Source: Crambe crambe
Taxonomy: Eukaryota > Porifera > Demospongiae > Poecilosclerida > Crambeidae
Length of the DNA: 64,000 nt
Assembly: GCA_963924555.1 (NCBI GenBank)
Contig: OZ004586.1
Location: 3,120,501 to 3,184,500, forward strand
Direction: 5' to 3'
The position numbers and the translations under genes were made by a program. Of the stretch, positions 2,316 through 64,000 are shown piece after piece (positions within the stretch are counted from its first letter, which is position 1; each line of letters starts with the position of its first letter). A model generated the notes under the pieces. The model was given only the letters and a program-made list of their open reading frames with translations. It searched no databases and had not been told where the DNA came from.

Positions 2316-2375
<60 letters not shown>

Positions 2376-7000: not shown

Positions 7001-7567
7001 TCATTACTATGTATAAAGGAAGAAGAAGTACGTATATATATATGGATGGCTGTGTGCAGTTCAAAAAATTTTAGAGTGAACTTCTGATCAGTCAAGCCCA
7101 TCACAAATATATGACCAAGCTACGAGCTAACTATTCCTACTTCACTCCTATGACAGGCCAAGATGAGTTACGTATAAAGGGAGTGAAGTAGGAATAGTTA
7201 GCTTGTAGCTTGGTACGTAATATTGGTTACTTGACTGAAGTTCACTCTCTTGTTGCTGAACTAGCTTCTTTGAACCGTACACAACCCCTACTTCTCTTTT
7301 TTAGTTAGAATAAATTACTTGTTCATCATCTTTTTTGATGTAATGCTTTATTCTCAGAGAGTATGATAGGTAGGGATGGCACGGATGCTCCATTGGATTA
7401 GTACTTAGCTAATATTTTCTTTCATAACTCCAGAATACTACTTACCTCCTGCAGTCAGCAACTCCCAACTTGAAGATAGAACACCTTAGGACTCAAGTAT
7501 GAAGAGCAGAAGACAAAGCAGTGTCATATTTTACAGCGACTCCATTTTCATCTGGTTGTTCATCACT

Positions 7568-7627
<60 letters not shown>

Positions 7628-12200: not shown

Positions 12201-12857
12201 TAGCTAAATAAAAAGATAAAAGTTGAAGAATCAAGTCTTTTACTGATACCAATCTTGCAAGACACTATAGCCTCTTTCAAGACGTAAGCAGTCATTACTA
12301 TGTATAAAGGAAGAAGAAGTACGTATATATATATATGGATGGCTGTGTGCAGTTCAAAAAATTTTAGAGTGAACTTCTGATCAGTCAAGCCCATCACAAA
12401 TATATGACCAAGCTACAAGCTAACTATTCCTACTTCACTCCTATGACAGGCCAAGAATGAGTTACGTATAAAGGGAGTGAAGTAGGAATAGTTAGCTTGT
12501 AGCTTGGTACGTAATATTGGTTACTTGACTGAAGTTCACTCTCTTGTTGCTGAACTAGCTTCTTTGAACTGTACTCAGCCCCTACTTCTCTTTTTTAGTT
12601 AGAATAAATATTTTTCCTTTACTTGTTCATCATCTGTTTTGATGTAATGCTCTATTATCAGAGAGTATGATAGGTAGGGATGGCACGGATGCTCCATTGG
12701 ATTAGTACTTAATATTTTCTTTCATAACTACTTACCTCCTGCAGTCAGCAACTCCCAACTTGAAGACAGAACACCTTAGGACTCAAGTATGAAGAGCAGA
12801 AGACAAAGCAGTGTCATATTTTACAGCGACTCCATTTTCATCTGGTTGTTCATCACT

Positions 12858-12923
<66 letters not shown>

Positions 12924-13351
12924 GTCATCATCAAACAACTTACGTATTTCAGATTCAAACGCTATACAATCTACTCAGAAATGACTGCATGCAAATTTAG
13001 AAATTGCTGTAAAAGGATACATAGCTACTGCTTTGTCTTCTGCTCTTCATACTTGAATCCTAGCATATTGAAGGTGTTGCTGACTGCAGGGGGTAAGTAT
13101 TCTGGAGTTATGAAAGAAAATATTAAATAGCTACTACTCCAATGGAGCATCCATGCCATCCCTACTTAGAAAGTACTATCGTACTCTGATAATTGTTAAT
13201 AATGTATCTGATAACTAATAATTTCTATAAAAATATTATATTCTACCTACAAATAGGTTACATAATATGTATAGACTCACTCACCTTGACTGCACACAGA
13301 CATGAGAGTGGACACAAGTCCAAGCAGAACTAACACGCCATTCAACATCAT
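9273..13351 (-). CDS. Receptor C: near-identical tandem copy of receptor B
   Basis: Exons (minus) 13285-13351, 11755-12015, 11396-11704, 11027-11329, 10473-10760, 10074-10415, 9727-9868 and 9273-9375 give 604 codons plus stop with no internal stops. It has the same order as B: signal peptide, five FN3 domains, stalk, membrane helix, tail ending in YDSI. Differences from B are few. One is a perfect 15-bp duplication near 11098 that repeats the residues RVAGV at the end of FN3-3. Others are scattered substitutions (for example Met to Ile in the MVRQ motif of FN3-1, Ser to Arg in FN3-4). The very low divergence points to recent duplication or ongoing gene conversion. The 5-residue insertion lies in the G-strand region and may disturb that domain. 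Confidence 0.85.
12016..13284 (-). repeat. Intron 1 of receptor C: copy of the two hairpin elements
   Basis: Hairpins at about 12337-12635 and 12641-13196, with the longest (ATC)n run of the three copies at 12858-12933. Sequence is closer to the A copy than to the B copy. No coding content is seen apart from the microsatellite-derived Ile run. Confidence 0.75.
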
Positions 13352-14568
13352 TACTAGCCTAGCTAGCTATACCACACACCATGCATGGATGCATAAGCTA
13401 GCATACTGCTAATACTGCTATGTCTAGAAAGCTGTTTTGTTCCCAGAGAGATAACATTTGGAAAACATGAAGCAAGCTACTTATACTGGTATGTAGAGTT
13501 AAGTGAAGTATGTGTGTACATATGTACTGCACACTAGATTATTGTCCCAATATACACACAAAAAAATTGGGACAAAATTGTGTGCAGTAAACACTTTCAT
13601 TTTTACAGTGTATAGTAATCAGAGACATTTGGAAAACATGAAGCAAAACTATACTGCAAGAAATTCATGTTTATAATAATTAATTTATTATTGATTTTTG
13701 GTTTTTTACAGCTTATAATAATTACATGTACATGGTAATTAATTTCATTTGATTAGTTGATGAACATGACCATGAATAATTTAAACTATGTAACTGAGAA
13801 GTGATTTTCATCTGACCATCATCTGCAGCAGAGATCACTAAATTAGCTTTAATCTCAATTCTGATAATACTATTAGCTACCAAGATGGTAAAAAAAAATG
13901 CTTAATTGTAGCTAATGATGTCATTACAAAAATTACTACACGAAGGAACAGGATCATGTGATGTAAATGTGAATGAGCAAGATGCTAGTATTATGAAACC
14001 AACTGTCTCAAGGAGTTTAACTCCAACTGATGCACTGCCAGCAGGTGGTGATATGGGAGCTGGTACTTTTATAGATGAATACCAAAAAAATTGGGATGCC
14101 CCTAAATCTAACCAGGAGAGGCATGAATGACTGTCACCCAGCAGGCATTCAAAAAAAGAGACTTCTTATGCATCTTCAAGTGAGTCAACTAAAAAATTGT
14201 ATTGCCTCTTTGAATATTTTCTCATAAGGAGATTAGTCATGATAGAAGCTATTATTTCTTTATAATCACAATGACAGCTGACTTTTTATAAACAAAAGAT
14301 CATTCCAGAATGATGGTTACTGTTATGACCACTTATACTCGATCAATCTCAAAATAACTTTTGGCTATAATAGCAAACAACAAGGAAACTCAAAAACCAC
14401 ATGCAGAACGTGTCAAATTATAAAGACTTGTAGCTATTTGTATGAGCTTACAAAAATGCCAATTAACAGTGAAAAATCCAATGATAGCACTAAAATATTA
14501 TTATATATAGTCACCAATGCATTTATTTATAATTAAGTGTATACAAACATGCACATTGTAGCTCCTTT
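13352..14568. other. Spacer between receptors C and D
   Basis: Third near-identical copy of the array spacer. One base deletion near 13962 opens a 71-codon plus-strand frame (13915-14130) over the stalk-exon relic; the other copies lack it, so it is not judged a gene. Confidence 0.6.
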
Positions 14569-17480
14569 TCAAATACTATCGTATACTTTTTCTGATGTTT
14601 GTGGCATTTGTGTAGTCATTACATGTCCATATGCTGCACAAGCATCCATTTCCATTCCATCAGCAGGACCTCTGTGTAAATAAACAAGAAATACAACAGT
14701 CTATTGATCAATATTGGCTACATTGAGACTTCCTTAACTCTAAAATTAATAATTATTTTGTGGGCAAAATCTTAGCTAATACAGTATGTAGGTGATATTC
14801 GTTCAAAATTAATTTTAACATGTGTACACATAGCTAAAAGCCATAATAGCTGCATGGTTACATATTTTTATAGTATAAACAAAGATTTCGACAAGAAACC
14901 ATAACAGATAGATGGTTATAGCTAGCTACATTTTTAAATCGATGGCCTAACCTTAGCTACATGGTTAGCTTACTTAGGACCTGACATTTTAAAATCTCAC
15001 TCTTTATTTCCTTTCTGGTGATGGTTGCACATAGAGTACATAATGAAGTTGATAACAGTGGAGAGTAAGACAGTCAAGAGAAAGGTGAGTACGAATGTAA
15101 CAGCAACTCCAATGGATAAGTCCCTCCTACATGTAACACCTGTAAAGAGAAAATGATCAGCTGTAACATCACTCTTATAGTGGAACCTAAATTTGTGGTC
15201 ACATGTGTCAAGTTTTTTTAAGGTGACTGTTATACAGTAAGCAGGTTCCCTCAGATATTGTAGGTATATAGCTAAATGAGATGGTGTATAGCTATACTAT
15301 GCATGATAGCTAATTGTATGACTTACGTACATATAATGGTACTGGTTGTAGTTGCAATTGACATAGTTGTAGGAGGTATTACTGGTCTTACTGCATCTGA
15401 CCTTTCCCCCATAATAACTTCTCCATTTATTTCAGCTGTAGCAGCTACCTGGAACTGGTAATTTATGATGTTTGATTCAGTCAAATTTCCAATAACAACC
15501 GAGTTCACAGAGCTGAGAACAATGATGGATTCATCGACCTCTGTCTCATTATTGTCTGTCACATTGATAAAGACTTAGTAGTAAACCATGTAGTAGATAA
15601 TCATAGGGTTGTTAATACTCTCCCAGGAAACTCTGACTGAGGAATCAGACATAAACTCCACCTGTACATTCATCACTTTGGCTAATGAGAGAAAATGACA
15701 TAATAATAGTGATGATTCTGGTACGTATATTGACTCACCTGGTGCTTCAGAGGTAATCTGATCAGATAAATTAGCAGGTTCTCCTCGACCTATTCTTGTG
15801 TATGCAGTGACTGTAATATCAGAGACTCTTGTTTGTGGAGTCAATGATGGGATAGTGAATGTAGTTCTCAAGTCTGAGGTCTTGACTCTGATAATATTGT
15901 CACCATTGACTGTGTAAGTGACTTCATAACTGATGATGACTCCATTAGGTTCTTGAGGTGGACTCCAAGTGAGTACAGTGGAAGTGAACTTTGGAGTTCC
16001 AGCGAGGTTAGACACAGGACCAGGAGCTACACATAAAAGACACTAAGACTGTTGTTACAGTTATGGCTATGATTACTTTCTTCTTCAGTCAGAATACTGG
16101 TTACATTAGAAAAGGGTCCAGTGCCATTGTCATTGACTCCAGCAACTCTGAAGGTGTAGTTTGTGTAAGGAGTGAGTCCACTAACTATGAAGGTCCTATT
16201 TACCACCACACCAGGGATCAGAGCCCCTCCCACTTCTTGGAATTCCACTGTGTAGCTAGTGATTGGACCATTGCGTTCAATGCATCTGATTTGTGTCCAG
16301 GACACACTAACACTTCTGGAGGTGGCAGAGGAAATATTGACGTGTGGGGAAGCAGTAGGTGCTGCGGCTGAATAAACAATTAGCATAAATGTTTAATTTC
16401 AGTGTATGGTCATAGCTACCAGCTGCCTTTGTAGTGAACTCTACAGTTGGTGTCAGAGTAGCAGTGAATCCACTTGGTAATGTAACAATAATGGTTACAT
16501 TGTAAATACTGAATTCCTGTAGGTTAGTGAACTCCACTGTGGAAATACCAGTGGTCATTTTGGACTTATCATCCTCAACCACTTGACGAAACTGCCTTGT
16601 ACCAGTTACTCGTCTCAGTTCTACTCTATACTCATCCATCGGGAGACTGAATGGAGGCTGGGTCCAGGATATGATCACAGACGTGGCAGTCAGTGATGAG
16701 AAAGTGATATCTATTGGCCTGCTGAAATCTGATAGAACACTCATTAGTTACTGATTGTACATAATAAGTTACATTTCCTCACCTCTTACAGTGCCACTCA
16801 CAGGTCCTACTACGATTGGAGTCCCATAAAGTGCAACCAGCCAATAACTAACTGTAGTACCAGGTGGCTGTCCTACTTCACGACTAGATGCTGTAAATGC
16901 TGCTCTTATGCCAACACTGAAGTCTGTAGGTCTTGTGTCACCTGTTGTTATTAGGTATCCCCCACTAGGAGGATTGGGTGGTGGTGTCCAGGAGACTCTC
17001 ACTCTATTTATCCCAATCTGTCTAACCATGAGGTCAGTAGGAGCTTGTTCTGCATGTAAGTTAACACACCCATCTTAATAGGATCGTTAGCTAACACACA
17101 CCCATTTTTAGTGTACATTCCCAATCCCAAATTCCATGATTAAATGATACCGTGAATACTAGCTAGCTATAGCACCATTATTATTATGCATGCATGCAGT
17201 AGCTATAGTGACATACGTAGCTAGCTCACATATTATGATAGCTACACATAGCATTCTCCAAATAAAAAGATCATAATGTTGAAGAATAATATTAATCTTC
17301 CAAGACAGTTGTTCTCTTCTCTTCTTTCAAGGATATATTTTGTTAGCATTCATTTACTAGCTAGCTAATATCAATAATCACATCTTGCTACCTACGTACA
17401 AATAGACCTCACTCACCTTGACTGCGCACAGGCATGAGAGTGGACATAACTCCAAACAGAACTAACACACCATTCAACAT
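14569..17480 (-). pseudogene. Receptor D: diverged FN3 receptor with an in-frame stop in FN3-5
   Basis: Exons (minus) 17417-17480, 16783-17049, 16420-16728, 16077-16361, 15739-16026, 15331-15681, 15001-15139 and 14569-14671 keep correct splice sites and phases across the whole gene. A 6-bp insertion relative to B in FN3-5 places a TAA at 15575-15577, directly after the residues MVYY. The expected product is therefore a secreted protein with four and a part FN3 domains and no membrane anchor, unless the stop is bypassed. The downstream stalk, membrane and tail exons are otherwise open. The 5' two thirds differ clearly from A-C, while the last exon and 3' flank are almost identical to B and C, so it is a mosaic. 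It may be a recent pseudogene or a natural soluble form. Confidence 0.7.
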
Positions 17481-30128: not shown

Positions 30129-32326
30129 TGTGTGTAGCTTTCTCACAGTAACTTGCAGTGTCCTGATGACATACAGTAGTCAGCAAACGTCAGTGATGGA
30201 TGGAGTACATACGTGCCTCGATGTCCATGAGTATCCCTAATGAAATACATGTATGCTTACGTACGTACTTCAACATAACATGCATGCATCGATGAATTCT
30301 CCCTGGCAATCATCAAATCCTGGAATAACTTTGAGCACTATGCAATTATGATCATCTACAGGAAACAAGTACGTAGATAGCTTTATCATGTTTGCAAATC
30401 AATTCAACATGTTTTCTTTGTGTAATCCAATTATTTTAGGATGTTCATCACCACTGTCAAGACTCTATGGACACATTGGTAGCTAGTCAATATGTTGCGT
30501 ATCTGATACTGATTCCTGAATCCTGTGTCAGAGAGGGATTGAATGATTCACTGCCACATACTCTCCAAAGTTATTTACTGGAATAGTCTCCCTTTGAACA
30601 GGATTGATTTCTTCATTATCTGGCCTCACTGTAACTTCTCTTTCAGCTACACTACTTTGGTTCCTGGTCTGTAATTGTAGACTCCACTGGGTCTGAGCTC
30701 AGCAGACACTATGGAAAGAACACCACTTGGCTGAATCTCCACTGCAGAGTCGGACTTCAACTCAATCCCTTCATAGTACCAGGTGAGGGTGTATAGGCTC
30801 AGGATTCCCATTCACTGCAGTCTTGAATGCTATAGCTAGCTGTTTATTAGAAGGAAAGTCCATGATCACAGGTCCTGCAATTTAAAAAAAGTGTTAGTTA
30901 GCTATATAGCTAATACTGAAATGAAGAGGTATAAGCAGGTAGTGGCTTGATGTACAGATTGTACTGGTCTTTCAACAAACCTGTATATTCCTCCATCATA
31001 ATAATTGAATCAGGTATCATCTTCACAGCCATAATGTATTGTATATACAGTACATAATTATTATGATGATAATAATACTAACATCTTTTCTTCAGCCAGA
31101 ATCCAACCTAACACAACCAAAAGAAGAGCAATAGCTAATAATAATAATTCCTCTAATTATTGGTCCAATTTGTGGCAGTATAGTAGCTATGGGATTAAAG
31201 GAACACAAGACATTTTCAGGTACACAAAAGCAACTTACACATCAAATTTTAGCAAGTTACCGCACTTAAATTTATAGGGGATCTATAATGTTTGGCTTAC
31301 ATGCCAATGTAGCGTTGGCCTTGGAAATTTGACTACGTAGATGTTGTAGTTGCAATTGACATAGTTGTAGGCTGCATCATTGATCTTACTGCTGATAATA
31401 ACTTCTCCATTTTTTTCAGCTGTACGTATAGCAGCTACTTGAAACTGGTAATCCATGATGTTTGATTCAAATAACTGAGTTCACAGAGCTGGGAACAATG
31501 ATGGATTCATTGACCTCTGTCTCATAGTCCTCTGTCACATTAAGAAAGTAGTAAATTGTGTAGTTTGTAATCATAGTCGTTAATAATATCCCAGTGTAAG
31601 TGACTGTAGCTAATAGCATGCAGAGATTTAGAGTCAATGATGGGATAGTGAATGTAGCTAGTGCTCAAGTCTGAGTAGAGGTGTTGACTCTGATAGTATT
31701 GTTGCAATTGACTGTGTAAAAGTGACTTCATAACTGATGATGACCCCATTAGGTTCTTGAGGTGGACTCCAATTAAGTGAGTACAATAAAAGGAGTACCA
31801 GCAAGGTTGAAAACAGGATCAGGAACTATATGTGTACAGAAATAATCAGTGATGATCATTGTTCTTGATGGACCTTTTATGAGGGTCCCAAGAGCAGTCA
31901 CAGAACTCATGTATGGGATAGTTGGTTAGCTTATAGCTACAAGTATAGCTAATATTGGTACAGAGTTTGGGGGGATGCAGGGTTCTATCTAGGATATTTT
32001 AATGGGGGGGGGGGGGGGGGGGAGAGAATATCCATGCACTTGTGCGTGGGAAAAAACACCCTTTTGGATATCAAACCATGCCCACTTGATGTTTTGCATA
32101 GCTAACAGCTGCAATTGTTGATATGAGGAGATTAACTACATGTAGCTGGAATATAAGACACTCTCTCTTTATGGTTAATCCACTGGCATGGGTGTGTATG
32201 ATTACCACATCATGTCCAGGGGTGTTAATGGACATGTACAATAGTATTAGCAATGGAAAAAAAAATTATTTTTTTTTGAGGGGGGGGGGGGAGGGGGGAA
32301 GCTGGAAGTTTTTTGGGGGGGAAGCT

Positions 32327-32362
<36 letters not shown>

Positions 32363-33304
32363 AGTAGATAGAACCCTGGGGATGGGAGTTGGGTGATTGA
32401 TTAAGCCTCCATTGTATAACTTTCATACACTAATGACACAGCCATCCATCTTTGTTTTACTTAGAAAATATATATAGCTAACTATGATTACATTCTTCTT
32501 TAGTCATAGCTAATAGTGGTTGCATTAGTAAAGGGTCTAGTCCCACCACCACACCAGGGATCAGAGCCCCTCCCACTTTTTGGAATTCCATTGTGTAATT
32601 ATTAGTGATTGGACAATTGTGTCCAGGACACACTAACACTTCTGGAGGTCACAGAGATGCTGCGTTGGGGAGCAGTAGGTGCTGCAGCAGAACAAACCAT
32701 TAAGCTACGTAACTCTGTGATTTCAGTGTATGGTCATATGTACGTACCAGCCTACTGCCTTTGGTTGTGTTTGATAATGTGCACATTTCCTTACCTCTTA
32801 CAGTGGTACTCACAGGTTCTACTACTATTGGAGTCCCATAAAGTGCAACCAGCCAATATATATAAGTAACTGTATACCAGGTATCTGTCCTTACATCATG
32901 ACTAGATACTCCAAATAGTGCTGTTATGCCACGTCTGAAGTCTGTAGGTCTTGTGTCACCAACTGTTATTAGGTACGTAGGAGGATTGGATGGTTGTGTC
33001 CAGGAGACTCTCACTCTATTTATATCCCAATCTGTCTAACCATGAGTTTAGTGGGAGCTTGTTCTGCATAATTAACACACCCATCATACTAGGATTATTA
33101 GCTAACAAGCACCCATTTATAGTGTGATGACAATCTTTTGTTAGTAGTCATAATTATAATCTGTTAATAATGTAGCTATGTAGCTATTAATCAATCATCT
33201 TTCTACCTACAAGTAGGTTAGCTATAGACCTTACTCACCTTGACTGCACACACAGATATGAGAGTGGACACAAGTCCAAGCAGAACTACCTCGCCATTCA
33301 ACAT
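30129..33304 (-). pseudogene. Relic H: decayed full-length receptor phosphatase gene
   Basis: Pieces occur in the order of genes I and K. The signal exon 33239-33304 has a 2-base insertion that breaks phase. FN3-1 is at about 32796-33069, FN3-3 at about 32490-32690 (FN3-2 is missing), FN3-4 at about 31625-31840, FN3-5 at about 31325-31600 and the membrane exon at about 31090-31190. The Ig part lies at about 30540-30880, the juxtamembrane part (DSGDEHPK) at about 30395-30475, and the start of phosphatase domain 1 (DDHNCIVL, IPGFDDCQG) at about 30250-30355, with a trace at 30129-30205. Deletions, frameshifts and an inserted element (31978-32378) make it non-functional. Everything after the start of domain 1 is lost. 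The left part is copied upstream of gene K. Confidence 0.7.
31978..32378. mobile_element. TIR element with poly-G/poly-C interior inserted in relic H
   Basis: Terminal inverted repeats CAGGGTTCTATCTA and TAGATAGAACCCTG bound the element, with GGGATG directly outside both ends as a likely target duplication (6-7 bp). The interior has a 19-base G run (32004-32022), further G-rich runs, and GGGGGAAGCTTCCCC followed by a 35-base C run (32328-32362). The CAGGG ends are hAT-like. No transposase frame is present. Confidence 0.7.
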
Positions 33305-33784
33305 GATTATTAGCCTAGCTAGTTACTACACCATGCATGGATGCATGAACTAGTATACTACAAGTCTAGAAAGCTGTTTTGTTTCCTAATACGTAAGTAA
33401 TCAGAGATATACTAACATATGAAAACATGAAGCAGGCTATAATTCATGTATACATTGTATGTAGAGTTAAGGGAGCTAGCTAACTAGCTATAGCTAGTAA
33501 GTCCTAGAAAGCTCTGTTTTGTTTGGGAATTGTAGACATTTGGAAAACATAAAGCAAAGCTGTGTATACTGTAAATTAAGCAAGTATAAATTCTTGTTTA
33601 CAATAATTTTTGGTTGTACATGATACATAGCTATGTACATGGTAATTAATTTTCATGTGATTAGTTGATGAACATGACCACGAATAATATAACTTTAACT
33701 ACAAAATATACAAAATCTGATTGTCAGGTTCAAGACCTGAACAAAACATATTTTATTGAAGGTTCTTTACACATGATTGATAGT

Positions 33785-33955
33785 CCTACATCATAACTAG
33801 ATGATGTAAATACTACTTGTATGCCAGTACCAAAATCTGTATTAGGTATTCCCTTTTAGGAGGATTGGGTGGTGGTGTCCAGGAGATTCTCACTCTAGCT
33901 ATTTATCCCAACTTATCTGACCATGAAGTCGTAGGAGCTTGTTCTGTGTGCATAA
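33785..33955 (-). pseudogene. Isolated FN3-1 relic
   Basis: A fragment resembling FN3-1 of J (proline-rich TPPPNP region, W-R-I-S reading on the minus strand, and the Q-A-P exon start near 33950). It has deletions and a small insertion between the VRQ and INR positions. No neighbouring exons in phase. Followed on the right by a 27-base C run (34015-34041). Confidence 0.5.
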
Positions 33956-35180: not shown

Positions 35181-38100
35181 TTAAATGCTTTGAAAGTTGG
35201 CATATGTGTCAAATGAGTCCAAGAATACAAGTGTGGCATCAAATAAGGTCTTGTAATTTGCCTGCATAATGAATGATTGCATCTCCATAAAGAGTTACTT
35301 AATAATTCATTGGTGCCTCACCAGAGTGGGCACAGCCCCTGGTTTCTGAACGCGGAGAGCTTTGACCACTTGGAAGACATCCACCACTCCCTCTGTCTTG
35401 CATCGATCAATGATGGTGGCTATGGCACAGAACATTCCACTCCTGGTCACTGTGTCACTATACATACGTACAAACATTAGTTCACTGTAGCTATAGTCAT
35501 AACACATTAGCAAGCTTTGTATTGACCATATTGGAAGTTTGTTTGTTTGCTTGAATGTTGTGGTTCTGAAAGATTACATAATGACTACTTCATAGCTAAC
35601 CATGTGAGATCCCTTACCAATTTCTATTGTGTGGTAAAGGTCATCATTTGAAAAGTGCATGGTTTGTCAGTATCATGTGATTGGCTACCTGCAGTGTATG
35701 AATACAGGTTTGTTTCCTGTCTTCCTCTGGATTTTGGAGAGCTCCTCCACGACATCCACCACACTCTTGAGGTTGGAACACACTCCATCTGGTCTCCAGC
35801 ATGTGATGTGGAACTGAGTAACTTGGTGGGTCTTTTTGGTCTAAATGTAAACATAATACGACATAGTAACATATTTCCAACTCTTTTGATTTCTCAGTAC
35901 TTTACTCCTATAAAATACTTGGTCAATTAACTTTTTTTCGTTTAAGTATTTTCACCAAAAGTGCATCAAAATTACATAGTAGCTAATGAAATTAAATACT
36001 GATTTCATAAAGAAGGTTGGAGATTCTATATGCTAGACAACAACCTTATTTTGTAAGATGTCAAGTGTTCTGACAGTGAACCCATTCAACTCCTCCTGAT
36101 TAATCAGATAAACTTTGAACTCCCCAAATTGAGCCACTTGTCCCTCCACTGGCCAGTACTGGCAACTACTCTCCTGTAAATAATTATTATTCATCAACCA
36201 TACAGGGGGAATATAGAATAGAATTTATTAACATTGTATGTAATAGCTATATAATTGTGTTACATGTATGTGAATACCAATAGCAAAGTGTGCATAATGT
36301 AGCTATTCGTGTTGAGTCTCGATCATGTAATAGTTATATACTATTAGCCTCACTCATAATATGCAGAGACTGGGTATGAGGTTATACGTAATATAATGCA
36401 TGAACTTACTGAGCTGATTTGATGCATGCATTATACTGATAGCAATGGGCATGGCTATAATAAATATAAACTACTCTCCACAAAGATTTCATAAAATTGC
36501 TGTAGCTACAGTTACTAGAAGCAAGCAATTTTACCAGATGGTGTTACGATGAATACAGCAGTTATGTATTATTGCCATGGATGTATTATTGCCATGGATA
36601 CCAGTTATGTATACACATACCATTCCATTCTCAATGAGGTCGGACAACATGATGACTGCCCCACACTTCCTATCACAGATGACTTTCCACATGTTTCTGA
36701 CGGTGGAGGACATTGGGCCTTCTGCTATGATATAAGCCTTCTTTTGCTTATAAGCCTGCATACATACATACAATATAAGATGATCAAAAATTGACCGTAT
36801 AAGTGCTCTTAACAGATATGTAACCAAAAAAGTTCTTTTCTCACAAGGTAGCTAGCTAGATTACACACGAGTTAAGGAAATACTAGAAAGCAAAATTGTT
36901 GTACGTATATGCAAAGTTTGTTAGCTATCCTGATCTATTGCATGCAGTATGTTATGAATGTGGTTATTAATGAACTTACATTAGCAGCAACAGCATGTAT
37001 GTAGTCAGGATACTCTCCACTTATAACTACACGATGCTTATCAGCTATGTACATGTGAATATTATAACAGTGCATCCTAACTGTTTAATATTGGAATATA
37101 GAATGTTGAATTTACATGGTAGGAAATCTTTGAGGCGATTCTTATCTGAGTGATGGAGTGCAGCAGTGCATATGACATCATTCTGTTTAGGTGATACAAG
37201 ATCCAACACCTTTTTAAAAGAGAATTACATACAATTTGTTGGTAAGTAGTTGGTAAGTAGTCAAGAACTCTCTATAGACCTTGAACTGTGTCTCAAGTTT
37301 TATTGAGTTATCTTCCATGTTCTTCCTGTTCATCTTCATCAGTGTGGATCTGAGGTTAGTGGCATTTATCTCAGTATCTCCACACATCACTGACTCCAAG
37401 ATAGCATCATGGATGAAAATGTACTGCTCCTGTATGAGCAAGAAGAAGTATAGGTAGAAACAATTGGTATGTTTATCTTTTGGAATGACATTTTTGGGGA
37501 AGGATATTAGTTTTGCCATAACTCCAGATACCAATCATTTTTGTGCATAACTAATGACAGCATCCTAAAGGCCTTACTGGAGTCTGGACCATCTTCGTGC
37601 GCTGATGCCTCAGTTTATTGATGGTCCCTGCAATGTCCACTTTGTTTTCCTTCTTGACTTGTTCAAGAACAATATCAATACATATGAAAGTACCAGTTCT
37701 CCCCACTCCAGCACTGCATGTATAAATATTATGGTATAGTCAATACAGATGAATACCAGTTTCCTCCAGGCCACTCAATGATGTAGATTTACTAACAAGT
37801 TTTACCTCAATCACAAGATGTACCTCTATAATAATATCAAATTGTAGCCAAGCTAAAACATAAACACAATGTACAATGCCATTTACTAAATGAACACCCT
37901 TAAGTAGCTAAGTCTATGTAATGTTGTTAATAGGCTTCTGAAAAGTTAGAGATGTGTATTAGCATTATGCTATAACCTTAGAACCATTATGGCAACATTA
38001 CACAGAAAGTGTGTTTGTGTGTCATTTTCTTGGAAAAACTACTAAGCACTACATATGTTTGTTGTCATTGTTATCAAAACTGCAGTTTCCAGGACTCAAA

Positions 38101-41100
38101 CAGTCCATAAATCCATAGATCACGTCATTGGCCCCCAAAACATCATAGAATTTGTGCATGCATGCTTACCTGCAGTGTACTAGCATGGGGCCTCTTCTGC
38201 TCTTATGCTGTGAGAGGATCCTACGATGAAAGGAAAGCATTGAAGTGGCATAATCAGGCACTCCATGGTCAGGCCAGGACGTGAAATGAAACTGCTTCAG
38301 TGTCCAACTTGCAGAACTGCCTTCTAACTTTTATATAGATGAGAGAGAGATACTCAAGATTATGTACATGCAGAATGAATCAATATGCGTAGCTTTCTCA
38401 CAGTAATTTGCAGTGTCCTGATGACATAGTCAGCAAACATCTGATATTCCACCAGGGTGACCTTGAAGGGACCATAATTCTTGCTTCCACTGTCTGGCCA
38501 ATACTGCTCACATTTAACCTCTTGATGTTGGTTACCATGACAATAGTTGAGGGTCTCTCCTGCCAAATCAGTCGCCAAAAGTCGACAAGCATGCAACTTT
38601 TAGGACCTTCACAATAATTATGAGCTTTTATGATTTTACTCTTAAAACTTAATATGTATGGGCAATACCTTGTGTTACAATGAACTTTGATGGCTGTGAG
38701 TATCCCTAGTGAAGTACATAATTTATTATATTTATTTATTGTTTTTGCACATACTTCAACATAACATGCATTGATGAATCCTCCCTGACAGTTATCAAAT
38801 CCTGGAATAGCATTGAGCACTATGCGATTATGATCATCTGGAATTGATAAATAATATGTACATATCATTGCCACATATTATGATATGCAAAATTGTGTTA
38901 ATATAATACTGCATGTACAACTTACACACAGTGATGTTTCCAAATCGATTCAACTTTTTGTTTTCCTTGAGCAATCCAATTGTTTTAGGATGCTCATCAC
39001 CACTGTCAAGACACTATAAACACATTTATTGATTCATGTAGCTACAATAATAACATTATGTACATAGCTACGTAACTATACCTCATACTGATTCCTGAAT
39101 CCTGCATCAGAGTGGGAATGATTCGCTGCCACATACTCTCCATAGTCTGTCACTGGAATAGGCATCAATTTGACTGTCTCCTTTTGAACAGGATCAACTT
39201 CCTCATTATCTGGCCTCACAGTAAGTTGTACTTCTCTTTCAGCTACACCACTTGGGTTCCTGGCCTGTAACTTGTAGACTCCACTGTGTTTGAGCTTGAC
39301 AGACTCTATGGAGAGAACACCACTTGATTGAATCTCCACTGCATAGTCCGACTTCAACTTGATCCCTTCATGGTACCAAGTGAGGGTAGGCTCAGGATTC
39401 CCACTCACTGCAGTCTTGAATGTTACACTTTCACCTTCAGTCAGATGCTTATTAGAAGGAAAGTCCATGATCACAGGTCCTGCAAGTTTACAAACATGTT
39501 ATAACTGCAATGAATAGGTATAAGCAGTTTAATAATGGTAGTGCCTTAATGTACGTAGTTGATAGTTAACAAACCTGTATATTCCTCCATCATTATAATT
39601 GAATCAGGTGGTCTTTTATTATCATCTTCTCTATTCTTTTTTCTATTGTAGTTACACAGCCATAATGATTATTTATTCCACCAGAATCCAAGCAAAATAC
39701 GAAACACAATAAACAAAAGAGCAATAATCCCTCCAATCATTGGTCCAATTTGTGTCAGTAAAGTAGCTACAGAATACAATAATTATGTATGTATGAGACA
39801 GAGTGGTTTTGAAACTGTTTAAATTTTCACAAGTTGCCCCACAAATGTTTGCCTTACATGCCATTGTAGTGTTGGCTTTGGATATTTGAGTAGTTATTGT
39901 AGTTGTAGGAGGCATCGTTGATCTTATCGCATCTGACCTTTCTCCTATAATAACTTCTCCATTGATTTCAGCTGTAGCAGCTACCTGAAACTGGTAATCT
40001 GTGATATTTGATTCAGTCAAATTTCTAATAAGAACTGAGTTCACAGAGCTGGGAACAATGATGGATTCATTGACCTCTGTCTCATAGTCCTCTGTCACAT
40101 TAAGAAAGTAGTAAACTGTGTACTTTGTAATCATAGGGTTGTTAATAGTCTCCCAGGAAACTCTGACTGAGGAATCAGACACAGATTCCACCTGTACATT
40201 CATCACCTTGGCTAATGAGACAAAAATGATATAACAATAGTGATGATACTTGTACACTGACTCACCTGGTGCTTCAAAGGTAGTCTGATCAGGCAAATTA
40301 ACAGGTTCTCCTTGACCTATTCTTGTGTAAGCAGTGACTGTAATAGCAGAGACTCTTGTTTGTGGAATCAATGATGGGATAGTGAATGTAGTGCTCAAAT
40401 CTGAGGTGTTGACTCTGACAGTATTGTTGCCATTGACTGTGTAGGTGACTTCATAACTGATGATGACTCCATTAGGTTCTTGAGGAGGACTCCAAGTGAG
40501 TAAAATGGAAGTGAACTTAGGAGTACCAGCGAGGTTAGAGAGGGGACCAGGAGCTACACATAAAGAATTAGCTATTATAAAATTACAGTATGGCTTGGTA
40601 TGATTACTTTCTTCTTCTGTCATAATACTGGTTACATTAGTAAAGGGTCCAGTGCCAGCATCATTGACTCCAGCAATTTTGAATGTGTAGTTTGTGTAAG
40701 GAGTGAGTCCAGTAGCTGTGAAGATCCTGTTCACCACCACACCAGGGATCAGAGCCCCTCCCACTTCTTGGAATTCCACTGTGTAGTTAATGATTGGACC
40801 ATTGCGTTCAATGCATTTGATTTTTCCCCAGGAGACACTGATACTTCTGGAGGTGGTAGAGGTAGTGCTTATGCTGCGTGGAGAACCAGTAGGTGCTGCA
40901 GCAGAACAAACCATTAACATATTAGCAGCAATACTACTATTATTTCAGTGTACGGTCATACCAGCTGCCTTTGTAGTGAACTCTACAGTTGGTGTCAGAG
41001 TAGCATTAAATCCACTTGGTAATATAACAGTAATGGTTACACTGTAAATACTGAATTCCTGTAGGTTAGTAAACTCTATTGTGGAAATACCAGTGGTCAT

Positions 41101-42104
41101 CTTGGATTTGTAATCCTCAATTACTTGACACAACTGCCTTGCACTAATTACTTGTCTCAGTTCTACTCTATATTCATCCATTGGGAGACTGAATGGAGGC
41201 TGGGTCCAGAATATGGTCACAGATGTGGCTGTTAGTGATGAGAAAGAGATATTTATTGGCCTGCTGAAATCTGATAGAACATTCTTTAGTTACTGATTGT
41301 ACATAATAAGTTATACATTTCCTCACCTCTTACAGTTCCACTCACAGGTCCTACTACTATTGGAGTCCCATAAAGTGCAACCAGCCAATAACTAACTGTA
41401 CCAGGTACCTGTCCTACATCTTGACTAGATGCTCCAAATAGTGGTCTTAAGCCAGCATCAAAGTTTGTAGGTCTTGTGTCACCTGAAGTTATTAGGTATC
41501 CCCTTCTAGGAGGATTGGGTGGTGGTGTCCAGGATACTCTCACCCTATTTATCCCAATCTGTCCAACCCTGAGGTCAGTAGGAGTTTGCTCTGCATGTAA
41601 GTTAACATACCCATCTTAATAGGATCGTTAGCTAACACACACCCATTTATAGTGTAATGAGTGTAATTTCCCTAACCCCAAATTGCATGAGCTGTTGTTA
41701 TTAAATGATACAGTGCATGAATACCAGCTATAGCTTTGTAGCACCATTATTATTATGCATGCATGCAGTAGCTATAGTGACATATGTAGCTAGTTCACAT
41801 ATTCTGATTGCTACACATAGCAGCATTCTCCAAATAAAAGGATAATTAATTTTCATGAAGTCGTCTTTCCTAATGCACCGCCAATATACTAATCTTTCAA
41901 GACAGTAGCTAGTTACTCTTTTCTTCTTTCGACAATAATTATTTTGTTAGCAGTAATTTCTAGCTACATATAATCTGTTAATATAGCTAGCTAATATCAA
42001 CAATCACATCTTGCTACACCTACAAATAGACCTCACTCACCTTGACTGCACACAGACATGAGAGTGGACACCAGTCCAAGCAGAACTACCACACCATTCA
42101 ACAT
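35181..42104 (-). pseudogene. Receptor phosphatase I: FN3 x5, TM, Ig, two PTP domains; stop after TM and frameshift in PTP domain 1
   Basis: Ectodomain exons 42041-42104, 41327-41590, 40962-41270, 40608-40895, 40266-40553 and 39858-40211 are open. The membrane exon starts at 39766, but a deletion (compared with K) puts a TAA at 39669-39671 just after GFWWNK. The predicted product is 554 residues with almost no tail. Downstream exons are still present: juxtamembrane 39575-39642, Ig 39082-39479, DSGDEHPK exon about 38926-39015, PTP domain 1 at 38755-38837, 38669-38705, 38402-38606 (10-bp deletion, frameshift), 38170-38327 (WPDHGVPDY, VHC) and 37578-37713 (SAGVGRTG), then 37280-37429. Domain 2: 37116-37209, 36980-37044, 36621-36755, 36045-36173, 35689-35840 (FIHC), 35322-35457 (SDTVTRSG) and 35181-35261. 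It is either a recent pseudogene or a receptor reduced to its ectodomain and anchor. Confidence 0.75.
39082..39479 (-). other. Cysteine-less I-set Ig exon of receptor phosphatase I
   Basis: One exon encodes PSNKHLTEGESVTFKTAVSG, then PEPTLTWYHEG and HSGVYKLQARNPSG. This is a clear I-set immunoglobulin fold with the core Trp and the Tyr-corner Tyr, but the two disulphide Cys are replaced (Lys/Thr and Leu). It lies after the membrane exon, so it would be cytoplasmic, where a disulphide-free Ig is expected. About 35 acidic/polar residues follow before the phosphatase. Confidence 0.8.
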
Positions 42105-55866: not shown

Positions 55867-58800
55867 TTAAATGTTTTGAAAATTGGCATAAGTATCGAAT
55901 GAATCCAAGAATATAAGTGTGGCATCAAATAAGGTCTTGTAATTTGCCTACATATAATGAACGATTGCATCTCCATAAACAGCTAGCAATTAAGACATTT
56001 TATACAATACAACTCACCAGAGTGGGCACAGCCCCTGGTTTTTGGACACGAAGTGCCTTGACCACTTGGAAGACATCCACCACTCCCTCTGTCTTGCATC
56101 GGTCAATGATGGTGGCTATAGCACAGAATATTCCACTCCTGGTCACTGTGTCACTATATCATAGAGTATAGAAGACTTTAGTTTATTAGGTCAGTAGCCA
56201 TAGCTGTTGTATTGATTATTGGAGTATCATTGTTTTTGTTTGTTTAATAATAGTTTTGAGCATGACACACATGCAGTTTTATGCATGGTGTCATGCACTA
56301 GACTGTACGTATCATGTGATTGGCTACCTGCAATGTATAAATACAGGTTTGTTTCCTGTCTTCCTTTGGATTTTGGAGAGCTTCTCTACTTCTCTACAAC
56401 ATCCACCACAATCTTGAGGTTGGAGCACACTCCATCTGGTCTCCAGCATGTGATGTGGAACTGAGTCACTTGGTGTGTTATTTTGGTCTAAATATAAGAA
56501 TAGTGTCTCCAAATCTCAGTATTTTACTTCTTTGCTGCCTGAAATTCTGAAAAAATATGGCCAATTAAGTCCCCCCCCCCAATTTCTGCTAATTATTTGG
56601 ATCCAAAACTGATCAAAGGAGCTGAGATAATCATTATCATGTTTGACAACTACGTACCTTATTTTGTAAGATGTCAAGTGTTCTGACAGTGAATCCACTC
56701 AACTCCTCCTGATTAATCAAATCCACTTTGAACTCCCCAAATTGAGTCACTTGTCCCTCCACTGGCCAGTACTGGTGACTACTCTCCTGTAAATTATTTA
56801 TCAAGGGGAATACCAGTATTATTAAAAATGCACATAATGATTTTTACTTGCCAATAGATAAAGTGTACAATAATGTACTTGTGTTGAGTTATATCACTTT
56901 GACTCATATGTAGCTAGCTATATAACTATACACTGTTAGCCTAATAGGTACAGATCATGCATGGAGGAACTATACTGGGGACTATAGGCATAGCTATGAG
57001 CTTACAATGCACTGCATGAGCTTGCTGATGAATGCATGTATGCATACCCATAGCAACAGTAGTCTTGCTACTGCATGCATAGAATATACTCCCAACAAAA
57101 AAAATATTTTATAAAATTGCTGTACAGTCACTAAGAAAGACAAAACAACTTTACTAAATGGAGTAATGAATTATTGGCATGGATACGGCATCTATCAGTT
57201 ATGTATACAAACCATTCCATTTTCAATAAGGTCAGACAACATGATGACTGCTCCACACTTCCTATCACAGATGACTTTCCACATGTTTCTGACGGTGGAG
57301 GACATCGGGCCCTCTGCTATAATATAAGCCTTCTTTTGTTTATAGGCCTATATGAATTATAATAAGCTGAAATTTAAAATGCTAGGATGAAAATTAATGT
57401 ATATTATTATAGAAAACTCCCTCAATGTCTGAGATGTGATTAAGAATGTTTAATAGGACGTGTAACTTGAAAATATTTCTATCACTCTATCACTCTATCT
57501 AATGAGCTTACATTAGCAGCAACAGCATGTATGTAGTCGAGATACTCTCCACTCAAAATCACACGGTGCTTATCAGCTATGTACATGTGAAGAATTATTA
57601 CAACATTGCAGAGACAGCTTATAGAATTTACAAGGTAGGAAATCTTTGAGACGATTCTTATCTGAGTGTTGGAGTGCAGCAGTGCATATGGCATCATTCT
57701 GTTTAGGTGATACAAGATCCAACATCTGTAAAATGAGACAGCATTGTTTTAGTCTTATAATTATGGTCAAGAACTCTCTTTAGACCTTGAATTGTGTCTC
57801 AAGTTTTGTTGAGTTGTTTTCCATGTTCTTCCTGTTCATCTTCATCAGTGTGGATCTGAGGTTAGTGGCATTTATTTCAGTGTCCCCACACATCACTGAC
57901 TCCAAGATAGCATCATGGATGAAAATATACTGCTCCTGTATGAGCAAGAATCAGTAGGATATTAATTTTGCCATAACTCCATGACAGCATCCTATGTATA
58001 TATAGGCCTTACTGGAGTCTGGACCATCTTCATGCGCTGATGCCTCAGTTTATTGATGGTCCCTGCAATGTCCACTTTATTTTCCTTCTTGACTTGTTCA
58101 AGAACAATATCAATACATATGAATGTACCAGTTCTCCCCACTCCAGCACTGCATGTAATATAGTCAATGCAGATGAATGTACTGTACTAGTACTCCAGCA
58201 CTGCATGTATAAAAATCATGTAATGTACCATTTCCTTCCTGTATTTAAATATGGAATGATAAATGTACCAGTTTACCCAACTCAATGATGAAGCTAAGTT
58301 TTTTCTTTCATAGTAGCTATCTCAGTAGCAAATTACTCATGCTTTTTATAAATTATCAATAACATAACGTTATGTTACAATGTACAATGCCATTTACTAA
58401 ATGAACAACCCTAAGTAGCTAACCTTTAGGTATATACATATACAATGTAGTATCTAGAATTATAAACAGGGATGTTGACATGAGCACGTGTATTTCGCTA
58501 TCGTCCAAAATTTTCTTAAAGAACTCAAAAACAGTTCTTCAGTTTTTTTTAATAAAAATTCTCCCCTCTGGAATTGAAAATGTATTCCTGACTAAGCTAC
58601 TACAGATGCTGTTTGTTTTTGTTTTTTCACTGTTATGCTTTATAGATCATGTAATCTCAAGGACTCAAAAATAAATCCCTGAAAAGCATCATACGATTTG
58701 TGCATGCATGTTTACCTGCAGTATACTAGCATGGGACCTTTTCCGCTCTTATGCTGTGAGAGGATCCTGTGATGAAAAGACAACATTGAAGTGACATATT

Positions 58801-61800
58801 CAGGCACTTCATGGTCAGGCCAGGATGTGAAGTGAAACTGCTTCAGTTTCCAAGGACAGCTTGCAGAATTGCCTTCTAACTGTTTTATGCATGAGATAGA
58901 GAGAGAGATTTACTCAAGACTATGTACTACATGGTTACAGTAATAAATGAATCAATGTGTGTAGCTTTTCTCACAGTAACTTGCAGTGTCCTGATGGCAT
59001 AGTCAGCAAACATCTGGTATTCTACCAGGGTGACCTTGAAGGGACCATAATTCTTGCTTCCACTGTCTGGCCAATACTGCTCGCATTTGACCTTGTTACC
59101 TTCCTTGATGTTCGTTACCATGACAATAGTTGAGGGTCTCTCCTGCCAAATCAGTCGCCAAAAGTCAACAAGCATACAACTCTTAGGACCTTGACAATAT
59201 GAACTTATGTAATAAGATTGAATGATGGATAGAGTACATACCTTGTGTTGCAATGAACTTTGATGACTGTAAGTATCCCTAATGAATTACGTACATGTAT
59301 TGATGAATTCGTATAATTATAATGATTTGCTTACTTCAACATAACATGCATTGATGAATTCTCCCTGGCAATCATCAAATCCTGGAATAGCATTGAGCAC
59401 TATGCGATTATGATCATCTACAGGAAACAAGTAGTAAAATACAATATACACTGTACAGAAAGATTATAACTCACACACAGTGATGTTTGCAAATCGATTC
59501 AACTTTTTGTTTTCCTTGAGCAGTCCAATTGTTTTAGGATGCTCATCACCACTGTCAAGACTCTATACACACATTGATGTTCAGTAACTAAAACTCACAG
59601 TAGCTCTGTTACGTATGTAATTACCTCATACTGATTCCTGAATCCTGCGTCAGAGTGGGAATGATTCCCTGCCACATACTCTCCAAAGCTATTTACTGGA
59701 ATAGGCACAAATTCAACTATCTCCTTTTGAACAGGATTGATTTCTTCATTATCTGGCCTCACAATAAGTTTTACTTCTCTTTCAGCTGTGCCACTTGGGT
59801 TCCTGGCCTGTAACTTGTACACTCCACTGTGTTTGAGCTCAGCAGACGCTATGGAGAGAACACCACTTGGTTGAATCTCCACTGCATAGTCAGACTTCAG
59901 CTCGATCCCTTCATGGTACCAGGTGAGGGTAGGCTCAGGATTTCCACTCACTGCAGTCTTGAATGTTATACTTTCACCTTCAGTTAGATGTTTATTAGAA
60001 GAGAAGTCCATGATCACAGGTCCTGCAATTTCACAAACATGTTTAAGTCTGGAATGAAGAGGTATGCACTTTGATGTAAGGTAGTGGCTTGATGTAGGAA
60101 TAGCATTGTCTTTCAACAAACCTGTACTTGAATCAGGTGATGATTTTTTATTTCCATCTTCTCGATTCATTTTTCTATAATTATTAAGTACAGCCATAAT
60201 ATGTAATTATATTACACATGTACAACTATAATAACACTCGCACTTTTTCTTCAGCCAGAATCCAAGCAAACCACCAAACACAACCAAAAGAAGAGCAATA
60301 ATAATAATAGTAATAATTCCTCCAATTATTGTTCCAATTTGTGGCAGTGAAGTAGCTGTAGGATTGGCAGAATATAATTATTATGTATGAGACAGAGTAA
60401 CGAATAGATTTTCATGGATTTTGTGGTTTGAAATCAATGCAGGTTACCCCACAAACTGTATTTGGCTTACTTGCCATCGTAGTATTGGCCTTGGATATTT
60501 GAGTAGGTGTTGTAGTTATTGCAATTGACATAGTTGTAGGAGGCAGAACTGATCTTACTGCATCTGACCTTTCCCCCATAATAACTTCTCCATTAATTTC
60601 AGCTGTAGCAGCTACCTGCAACTGGTAGTCTATGATGTTTGAATCTTCAATCACAACTGAGTACATAAAGTTGTGAACAATGATGGATTCATTGACCTCT
60701 GCCTCATAATCATCCATCACATTAATAAAGTAGTAAACTGTGTAGTTTATAATCATAGAGTCATTAATAATCTCCCAGGAAACTCTGACTGAGGAATCAG
60801 ACACAAACTCCACTTGTACATTCATCACCTTGGCTAATAAAAGAAATAGTATCTATGAGATAGTGATGATTCTGCATGGTACATTGACTCACCTGGTGCT
60901 TCAAAGGTAGTCTGATCAGGTAAATTAGCAGGTTCTCCTAGACCCATTCTTGTGTAAGCAGTGACTATAATAGCAGAGACTCTTGTTTGTGGAGTCAATG
61001 ATGGGATAGTGAATGTAGTACTCAAGTCTGAGGTGTTGACTCTGACAGTATTGTTGCCGATGACTGTGTAAGTGACTTCATAACTGATGATGACTCCATT
61101 AGGTTCTTGAGGTGGACTCCAAGTGAGTACAATGGAAGTGAATTTAGGAGTACCAGTGAGATTAGAAACAGGACCAGGAGCTATACAGGAATCATCAAAA
61201 TCATTATAGTTATGGCTAGTCTATTAAGTTACATACTTTCTTCTTCTGTCAGAATACTGGTTGTATTAGAAAAGGGTCCAATACCATTGTCATTGACTCC
61301 AGCAACTCTGAAGGTGTAGTTTGTGGAAGGAGTGAGTCCACTAGCTGTGAAGGTCCTATTCACCACCAAACCAGGGATCAGAGCCCCTCCAACTTCTTGA
61401 AATTCCACTGTGTAGTTAGTGATTGGACCATTGCGTTCAATGCATCTGATTTTTGTCCAGGACACACTGACACTTCTGGAGGAGGTAGAAGTAGTGTTTA
61501 TGCTGCGTGGAGAAGCAGAAGGTGCTGCAGCAGAACAAACTATTAGCATAAGCTATGTAATTTCAGTGTATGGTCATACCAGCTCTCTTTGTAGTGAACT
61601 CTACAGTTGGTGTCAGAGTAGCAGTGAATCCACTTGGTAATGTAACAGTAATGGTTACACTGTAAATACTGAATTCATGTAAGTTAGTAAAGTTCACTGT
61701 AGGAGTACCATTGGTTATTTTGAATTTATCATCCTTAACATCTTTACACAACTGCCTTGCATCAGTTACTCGTCTCAGGTCTACTCTATACTCATCCATT

Positions 61801-62520
61801 GGGAGACTGAATGGAGGCTGGGTCCAGGATATGGTCACAGATGTGGCAGTTAATGATAAGAAATCAATATTTATTGACCTGTTGAAATCTGATAGAACAT
61901 TTATTGGTTACTGATTGTACATAATAAGTTACATTTCCTCACCTCTTACAGTGCCACTCACAGGTCCTACTACTATTGGAGTCCCATAACATGCAACCAG
62001 CCAATAAGTAACAACCGTATTATATTGGAGTATTTCATGACTAGTTGCTGTAGATGCTGCTGTTACGCCAGCACTGAAGTCTGTAGGTCTTGTGTCACCT
62101 GTTGTTATTAGGTATCCCCTACTAGGAGGATTGGGTGGTGGTGTCCAGGAGACTCTCACTCTATTTATCCCAATCTGTCTCACCATGAGGTCAGTAGGAG
62201 CTTGTTCTGCATCGATATAATTGTACTATTGGTCATTTCAGGTTAGCTACATATGAGCTGTAGTTCCCCATCAGTTTTGCTGTGCATGGATGCATGGTTC
62301 ATATGTAATGGATGCATGGTTCATATGTACAAAGATCTCTATTGTTATATGCCATTTGAAAGTATATATACGTAACTAGTATACTGTAACTGTTGCTACG
62401 TAGCTAATGCCCAAGATTATTTAACATACTTAGCTACGTAGATATGCACTTGCCTTGACTCCACACAGATATGAGACTGGACACAAGTCCAAGAGTCAGA
62501 AGTAGCACACTATTCAACAT
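55867..62520 (-). CDS. Receptor phosphatase K: FN3 x5, TM, cytoplasmic Ig, PTP domain 1, truncated PTP domain 2
   Basis: Exons 62454-62520, 61943-62206, 61580-61888, 61237-61524, 60893-61180, 60471-60833, 60244-60355 (membrane helix about 534-559), 60122-60174, 59625-60022 (Ig), 59475-59562, 59335-59417 (YDHNRIV-type), 59242-59278, 58975-59189, 58716-58879, 58013-58148, 57786-57935, 57632-57725, 57512-57576, 57213-57347 and 56658-56786 join in frame for 1146 residues. Domain 1 has WPDHE (Asp877) and a P-loop [10 protein letters not shown] (Cys909, Arg915), where the usual His is Tyr. Domain 2 then meets an 8-bp duplication in exon 56328-56487 and stops at 56386-56388. Exons 56018-56153 and 55867-55947 follow, open but out of reach. 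The likely role is dephosphorylation of phosphotyrosine at the membrane. The first intron has a GC donor. Confidence 0.8.
59625..60022 (-). other. Cysteine-less I-set Ig exon of receptor phosphatase K
   Basis: Encodes EGESITFKTAVSGNPEPTLT, then WYHEGIELKSDY and HSGVYKLQARNPSG. Core Trp and Tyr are kept; both disulphide Cys are absent. It is placed between the membrane helix and phosphatase domain 1 (about residues 582-714), so on the cytoplasmic side. It is close in sequence to the Ig exon of gene I, showing the arrangement is not a one-off assembly artefact. Confidence 0.85.
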
Positions 62521-62989: not shown

Positions 62990-64000
62990 AGCTTTCTCAC
63001 AGTAACTTGCAGTGTCCTGATGACATACAGTAGTCAGCAAACGTCAGTGATGGATGGAGTACGCACGTGCCTCGATGTCCATGAGTATATCCCTAATGAA
63101 ATACATGTAGCTATGCTTACGTACTTCAACATAACATGCATGCATTGATGAATTCTCCCTGGCAATCATCAAATCCTGGAATAACTTTGAGCACTATGCA
63201 ATTATGATCATCTACAGGAAACAAGTACGTAGATAGCTTTATCATGTTTGCAAATCAATTCAACATGTTTTCTTTGTGTAATCCAATTATTTAGGATGCT
63301 CATCACAATTGTCAAGACTCTATGGACACATTGGTAGCTAGTCAATATGTTGCGTATCTGATACTGATTCCTGAATCCTGTGTCAGAGAGGGATCGAATG
63401 ATTCACTGCCACATACTCTCCAAAGTTATTTACTGGAATAGTCTCCCTTTGAACAGGATTGATTTCTTCATTATCTGGCCTCACTGTAACTTCTCAGTCT
63501 GTAATTGTAGACTCCACTGGGTCTGCGATAAAAAAAAAAGTGTTAGTTAGCTAGCTAATACTGAAATGAAGAGGTATAAGCAGGTAGTGGCTTGATGCAC
63601 AGATTGTACTGGTCTTTCAACAAACCTGTATATTCCTCCATCATAATAATTGAATCAGGTATCATCTTCACAGCTATAATGTATTATACGTATATACAGT
63701 ACATAATTATTATGATGATAATAATACTAACATCTTTTCTTCAGCCAGAATCCAACCTAACACAACCAAAAGAAGAGCAATAGCTAATAATAATAATTCC
63801 TCCAATTATTGGTCCAATTTGTGGCAGTGAAGTAGCTATAGGATTAGAGGAACACAAGACATTTTCAGGTACACAAAAGCAATTAACTCACACATCAAAT
63901 TTTAGCAAGTTACCCCACTAAAATTTATAGGGGATCTATAATGTTTGGCTTACATGCCAATGTAGTGTTGGCCTTGGAAATTTGACTACGTAGATGTTGT
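62990..64000 (-). pseudogene. Relic N: decayed phosphatase receptor, runs off the right edge
   Basis: Near-identical to the left part of relic H (30140-31345). It has a trace of PTP domain 1 (62990-63065), the IPGFDDCQG exon (about 63118-63220), the DSGDEHPK-like juxtamembrane piece (about 63245-63325), an Ig remnant (about 63360-63520, with a larger deletion than H), a membrane-exon remnant (about 63730-63835), and the start of the FN3-5 stalk at the right edge. Frames are broken throughout. With gene K it repeats the G-plus-H unit, so the duplication is at least 2.8 kb. Confidence 0.65.

Follow-up and report, generated by a model that had tools for sequence, protein, structure and literature searches.

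The window, the whole 64,000-nucleotide stretch of sponge DNA analysed here (C9:3120501-3184500), belongs to a 143 Mb genome and carries on its minus strand a gene whose first eleven exons run from 62520 to 59335. A COX1 gene on contig C119 has seven TGA codons within the match, and its nine AGA/AGG codons read as Arg at places that appear to suit Arg, in line with a non-bilaterian animal. The eleven exons splice in frame through AG acceptors and GT donors, with exceptions in exon 1, whose start is its ATG and whose border as set gives a GC donor (AAG/GCAAGT) at 62454-62447 in place of GT. The parts of this focal gene are as follows.

62454..62520, minus: signal-peptide-like first exon, MLNSVLLLTLGLVSSLISVWSQ, from the gene model and a hydropathy of 1.99
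60471..62206, minus: five FN3-type ectodomain exons (62206-61943, 61888-61580, 61524-61237, 61180-60893, 60833-60471), all phase 1-1
60244..60355, minus: transmembrane (TM) exon, phase 1-2, hydropathy 2.89, KKKK after the helix
60122..60174, minus: basic/polar linker exon, phase 2-1
59625..60022, minus: predicted intracellular I-set Ig with juxtamembrane segment in a single 398-nt exon, phase 1-0 (Pfam, splice model, PDB alignment)
59475..59562, minus: first exon of PTP domain D1, P1 (SLDSGDEHPK...NRFANITV), from splice model and PDB alignment
58013..59417, minus: further PTP D1 exons, with an intron splitting the active site (translation; Pfam Y_phosphatase)
56018..57935, minus: D1-D2 join and PTP D2 exons, with a degenerate D2 motif (HC/SDTVTRSG) and an in-frame TAG

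The order is thus a signal-peptide-like exon, five FN3-type exons, one TM helix, a basic linker, an I-set Ig that lacks the canonical Cys residues and a tandem PTP. The TM, linker, Ig and first PTP exons are each bordered by AG and GT, and their phases are compatible in frame; P1 is phase 0-1 and the following exon, P2, is phase 1-0. The signal-peptide-like start, ectodomain and single TM helix expected of a receptor PTP come from the gene model and from hydropathy calculated to residue 771. Pfam fn3 matches the ectodomain with E=3.4e-42 (four stretches above cut-off). In a partial protein containing only the first PTP exons, residues 585-669 match I-set (E=9.4e-16) and residues 732-770 match the beginning of Y_phosphatase; with 39 PTP residues matched, the latter hit scores 19.0 bits, below the 20.9 cut-off. 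One D1 exon (C9:3179460-3179717, window 58960-59217) matches Y_phosphatase with E=2.3e-17, and the D1 exons encode a catalytic motif of the C(S)AGxGRTG type. Exons for the second PTP domain are present, with the in-frame stop.

Related units in the window

Three further units with parts of the same layout lie on the minus strand.

35322..42104, minus: gene I, same layout (TM 39764-39672, Ig 39477-39082, P1 39010-38927)
63138..63833, minus: relic taken to be N, in which fragments of TM (63833), Ig (63493) and P2 (63209) follow one another
30282..33941, minus: relic taken to be H, with FN3 fragments, Ig (30872-30540), P1 (30464) and P2 (30353)

A sequence-only reading of the window had proposed that the order TM, linker, Ig, PTP in the focal gene recurs in gene I and in both relics. 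In the focal gene the order is borne out by the in-frame splice model and by a single later hydrophobic segment at about residues 530-560. Gene I keeps TM-Ig-PTP, and so does relic N as far as its fragments go; relic H has Ig, P1 and P2 in order and gave no TM match at E 1e-3, so that for H only this part of the claim stands. Both long copies carry a defect. Gene I has a frameshift near 38520 in a D1 exon (38559-38402), and in the focal gene a D2 exon contains 8 bases that gene I lacks, together with the in-frame TAG at 56388-56386 (hand-counted coordinates). Both copies may therefore be truncated or dying, as judged from their reading frames. The layout does not depend on them, since the D1 exons of three paralogues elsewhere in the genome (L039, L040 and L042), as read, are open and extend to the active-site motif.

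The first part of the window (1-17050, minus strand) is made up of tandem units of about 5.3 kb with signal-peptide and FN3 exons, the first three of which are near-identical over long stretches. In the unit at about 2.9-4.8 kb another TM is followed by a frame with MEMDACAAYGHV...SEKVYDSI.

The Ig domain

The Ig exon encodes residues 582-714. Pfam I-set (PF07679) matches residues 4-88 of its 133 with E=1.1e-16 and covers profile positions 3-90 of 90, a whole-domain match that bears out the earlier I-set assignment. We aligned 32 Ig exons, 29 from C9 together with those of L039, L040 and L041; left out were L024, whose match is truncated, L042 and L043, in which the Ig is split by an intron, and Ig loci without fetched sequence. 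The absence of both disulphide Cys, noted earlier in the window, extends to the whole alignment: none of the 32 copies has Cys at the B or the F strand position. The B strand position is occupied by Val (15), Thr (13), Ile (3) or Pro (1) and the F strand position by Leu (30), Phe (1) or Met (1). Thirty-one rows retain the core Trp and the remaining row is gapped there; 15 columns are invariant, and L039, L040 and L041 are 32 %, 36 % and 45 % identical to the focal copy. Four Cys, all of them away from the canonical places, occur in the Ig part of one row, identified by eye as that of L040.

As a control, six-frame translations of L040 (C13), L042 (C15) and L043 (C12) were examined by eye. Their seven ectodomain Ig-like domains have both Cys, and their three intracellular Igs have none at the canonical positions. 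Three of the seven ectodomain domains were submitted to Pfam; the third of L042 and the second of L040 pass the cut-off and the first of L040 falls below it. The second half of the split intracellular Ig of L043 also scores below the cut-off (16.9 against 23.7 bits).

The best PDB match of the Ig is titin, in agreement with the titin-like character proposed from sequence; the F strand reads YSLKATN in the first aligned titin domain and YKLQARN here. The two best matches are both titin chains, and the cell-surface Igs of ROBO, DCC and contactin follow so closely that the PDB match alone cannot distinguish inside from outside. An AlphaFold model built from only two sequences, the intact Ig exons of the window, had a mean pLDDT of 37 and was discarded; the Ig sandwich fold is predicted from sequence homology to solved I-sets.

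Side of the membrane

Over residues 1-771, to the end of P2, hydropathy exceeds 1.6 only at the first residues and at about 530-560, and the highest 19-residue window behind the TM helix reaches 0.69. The TM exon counterpart in a second locus, L009, has a hydropathy of 3.08. A query of 86 residues, taken from the last part of the Ig exon and from P1 and P2, matches the beginning of PTP-sigma (E=4.5e-13) and LAR phosphatase constructs. In the juxtamembrane segment PIPV...QYESLDSG of the focal gene pairs with PIPI...EYESIDPG of the PTP-sigma/LAR constructs. Since this segment is encoded by the Ig exon and matches the intracellular beginning of PTP-sigma/LAR, with no hydrophobic stretch between, the Ig is placed on the phosphatase side. 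An Ig outside the membrane was considered and rejected on three counts: no second TM to residue 771, the Cys pattern, and the D1 start within the Ig exon. N-glycosylation sequons number 15 in the 510 residues of the focal ectodomain and none in the 88 of the Ig, a contrast that is weak evidence of topology because 18 of the 32 aligned copies have one sequon in the Ig part.

Distribution in the genome

Searching the genome with the Ig exon gave 82 matches, of which 19 were dropped. Five were the second part of a split or duplicate match (C9:3200593, C9:3151003, C9:3261695, C15:6954792, C12:226602); ten matches on C14 together with C15:6950148, C15:6947426 and C12:239257 were weak and confined to the Ig part; and C12:6326067 covered residues 103-130, the juxtamembrane part, only. 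This last site (C12:6326067-6326150) is a juxtamembrane part without Ig, 68 % identical over those residues. The remaining 63 Ig loci, relics and partial copies included, are distributed over C9 (45), C13 (14), C15 (2), C18 (1) and C12 (1), and the idea that the layout is a peculiarity of one copy was rejected on this count. The earlier suggestion that the arrangement is ancestral to its group finds support here, and members of the group also lie outside the window.

We fetched 30 of the C9 loci. A TM exon lies at most 1.5 kb upstream of the Ig in 28; none was found within that distance at L025 and L027. The Ig match is preceded by AG in 29 (the match in L029 starts one residue later), and GT occurs within 12 bases of its end in 29 (L021 has AT). 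The Ig match of L024 is truncated, so the GT counted for it does not mark the end of the exon, and in L038 a TAA stands in the Ig frame immediately before the donor. P1 was detected by tblastn at all 30 (17 + 13) and by a stricter text pattern at 27. The hydropathy of the Ig exons over these loci does not exceed 1.13.

The D1 motif QRMKMVQ, searched for as a DNA pattern, is present at 47 sites (C9 35, C13 8, C15 2, C12 1, C18 1), 44 of which have an Ig locus 1.3-5.9 kb upstream on the same strand. Read from the other side, the motif follows within 7 kb at 44 of the 63 Ig loci and is absent at 19. The distant paralogues L039 to L043 have the same layout as the focal gene. L039 (C18, minus strand) carries an altered D1 active-site motif, HCDGGMGRTGSF (HCDGGMGRTG), and has an ectodomain stalk of TTPPP repeats. 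The ectodomain of L043 (C12, plus strand) includes two Cys-bearing Ig-like domains and a long Gly-rich stalk before the TM; an intron interrupts its intracellular Ig.

Three receptor PTPs, L044, L045 and L046, show TM and PTP with no visible Ig in the interval, as judged from open frames of at least 50 residues; the genome has many more PTP loci outside the group, to which this absence may not extend. They have other residues at the place of the D1 motif. A second large cluster of PTP matches lies at C12:2.5-3.2 Mb; L044, the one member read, is without a visible intracellular Ig. L001 looks like SH2-SH2-PTP. In a nine-row D1 tree one branch, with support 78/84, separates five Ig-bearing from three Ig-less genes, and five of the six inner branches are open; the tree is weakly consistent with a single origin of the Ig-bearing genes and does not amount to proof.

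Selection

Pooled pairwise dN/dS was calculated for two groups of loci. The values are rough, since the data set contains broken copies and sequence exchange between tandem copies may have occurred. In group A (17 loci, 13-17 copies per exon) they are 0.55 for FNd, 0.43 for FNe, 0.55 for TM and 0.41 for Ig, with 0.14, 0.27, 0.20 and 0.17 for the phosphatase exons P1, P2, P4 and P5. In group B (13 loci) they are 0.54 for FNd, 0.75 for TM (3 copies) and 0.25 for Ig, with 0.16, 0.12, 0.11 and 0.10 for the same phosphatase exons. The Ig exon therefore appears to be under purifying selection, weaker than that on the phosphatase exons.

Proposed role of the intracellular Ig

We interpret the locus as a member of a clade of tandem-domain receptor PTPs in this sponge with an I-set Ig in the intracellular juxtamembrane region, and put the probability of this predicted architecture at about 0.93. 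The reading builds on the one TM helix, the Ig without disulphide on the phosphatase side, the sharing of one focal exon by the Ig and the D1 start, conservation across the family and purifying selection, all apparent in the genomic DNA. Probably one insertion event placed the Ig in the juxtamembrane region. That the intracellular Ig is also functional, whatever its partner, seems very likely.

We propose that the FN3/Ig ectodomain would choose the ligand and that the Ig would fold in the reducing cytosol in the manner of titin-type Igs. There it could act as a membrane-proximal docking module that keeps a cytoplasmic partner, cytoskeletal or signalling, near D1, and it would also set the spacing of the catalytic domain from the membrane. 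As the main role of the Ig, docking has in our estimate a little less than an even chance.

The Ig might instead be a regulatory element, packing on D1 or on the Ig of a second receptor and so governing dimerisation or the accessibility of the active site. Dimer-based control of RPTPs has been suggested for the D1 juxtamembrane region, and the Ig sits directly at this segment and shares an exon with it. Its evolution is, however, faster than that of the D1 exons (dN/dS 0.25-0.41 against 0.10-0.27), which does not favour a tight fixed interface, and we regard a regulatory Ig as somewhat unlikely.

The neighbouring units raise another idea. At 29663-26760 and 52307-49607 (minus strand) the same FN3 ectodomain leads into a TM and a short tail that contains two tyrosines, RQTVEDIEMDACEAYGHFPLKQQPQFTPSEPEYAVIS. 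This tail (DACEAYGHF...EPEYAVIS) has 10 matches in the genome, all on C9 and four of them full-length. A search with the fourth FN3 exon placed 116 of 145 matches on C9 (hand count; scoring covered 150 of the 561 candidates), where the Ig loci number 45, and many C9 ectodomain units thus seem to be without a phosphatase tail. The tail units in the window and the surplus of FN3 exons over Ig loci together suggested to us a paired-receptor system, in which one C9 type of FN3 ectodomain would be joined either to TM-Ig-phosphatase or to short tyrosine tails; one kind would dephosphorylate the other, and the Ig would bring both together. We offer this as a speculative proposal that is unlikely to hold.

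A passive spacer, or a leftover of domain shuffling that is merely tolerated, would fit the group A value for the Ig (0.41), which is near those of the FN3 and TM exons (0.43-0.55). Against it stand the lower value in group B (0.25) and an Ig that stays open, with its 15 invariant columns, across paralogues of 32-45 % identity on other contigs; we consider an idle domain distinctly improbable. An artefact of the gene model, with real transcripts dropping the Ig or placing it outside the membrane, is very improbable indeed: the model is drawn from genomic DNA, and transcripts that skip TM and linker (165 nt, phase 1-1) would stay in frame and encode a soluble protein, but the Ig exon of 398 nt is not a multiple of three, so that its skipping would break the frame, and contains the D1 start, the Ig lacks the Cys pair kept by ectodomain Ig-like domains of related genes, and 28 of the 30 C9 loci have a TM exon ahead of the Ig.

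Returning to a clade of receptor PTPs with an intracellular Ig, dozens of loci with a disulphide-free juxtamembrane Ig would show recruitment of the Ig fold to intracellular receptor signalling, and the domain would provide receptor phosphatases with a new means of coupling to partners. Expansion over several contigs, with varied ectodomains before the same TM-Ig-PTP core, suggests a recognition receptor system in an animal without adaptive immunity.

Comparison with known systems

The classes of receptor PTPs are defined by the ectodomain, with the juxtamembrane region regarded as a short linker. The sequence-only reading knew of no described receptor PTP arranged in this way. This is not contradicted in the open-licence literature, to which the statement is confined: among the papers listed by full-text searches, titles and abstract openings describe no Ig between TM and PTP, and the parts of PMC5336234 and PMC8662651 that we consulted make no mention of an RPTP with an intracellular Ig. 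A receptor PTP with an intracellular Ig before the phosphatase is thus a layout that we did not find described within that literature, and an earlier description may exist.

Receptors of the LAR type (R2A: LAR, PTP-delta, PTP-sigma) have disulphide-bearing Igs at the extracellular N-terminus. They share with the genes described here an FN3 ectodomain (joined by Ig in some of the sponge paralogues), one TM and tandem PTP domains, and in the PDB the D1 start finds its best matches in PTP-sigma and LAR. Unlike in the LAR type, the I-set match of the focal gene lies behind the TM and is free of the canonical Cys, and the matches in its ectodomain are FN3. R3 receptors (PTPRB/J/H/O, fruitfly PTP10D) share the FN3-only ectodomain with the focal gene, and to our knowledge have no intracellular Ig. 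In the part of PMC5336234 consulted, R3 receptors are described with extracellular FN3 repeats and a single PTP domain, in contrast to the D1 and D2 exons of the focal gene. Closer to hand, L044, L045 and L046 of the same genome share TM and PTP with a related D1, and no Ig was seen between the two.

The I-sets of titin, MyBP-C and palladin occur in sarcomeric and cytoskeletal proteins. Of these, titin 6fwx is the best PDB match of the Ig (E=7.4e-29; 3.7e-49 by profile), and its aligned domains have an F strand without Cys, as here. The Ig of the sponge genes differs from these titin-type domains in its position between a membrane helix and an enzyme.
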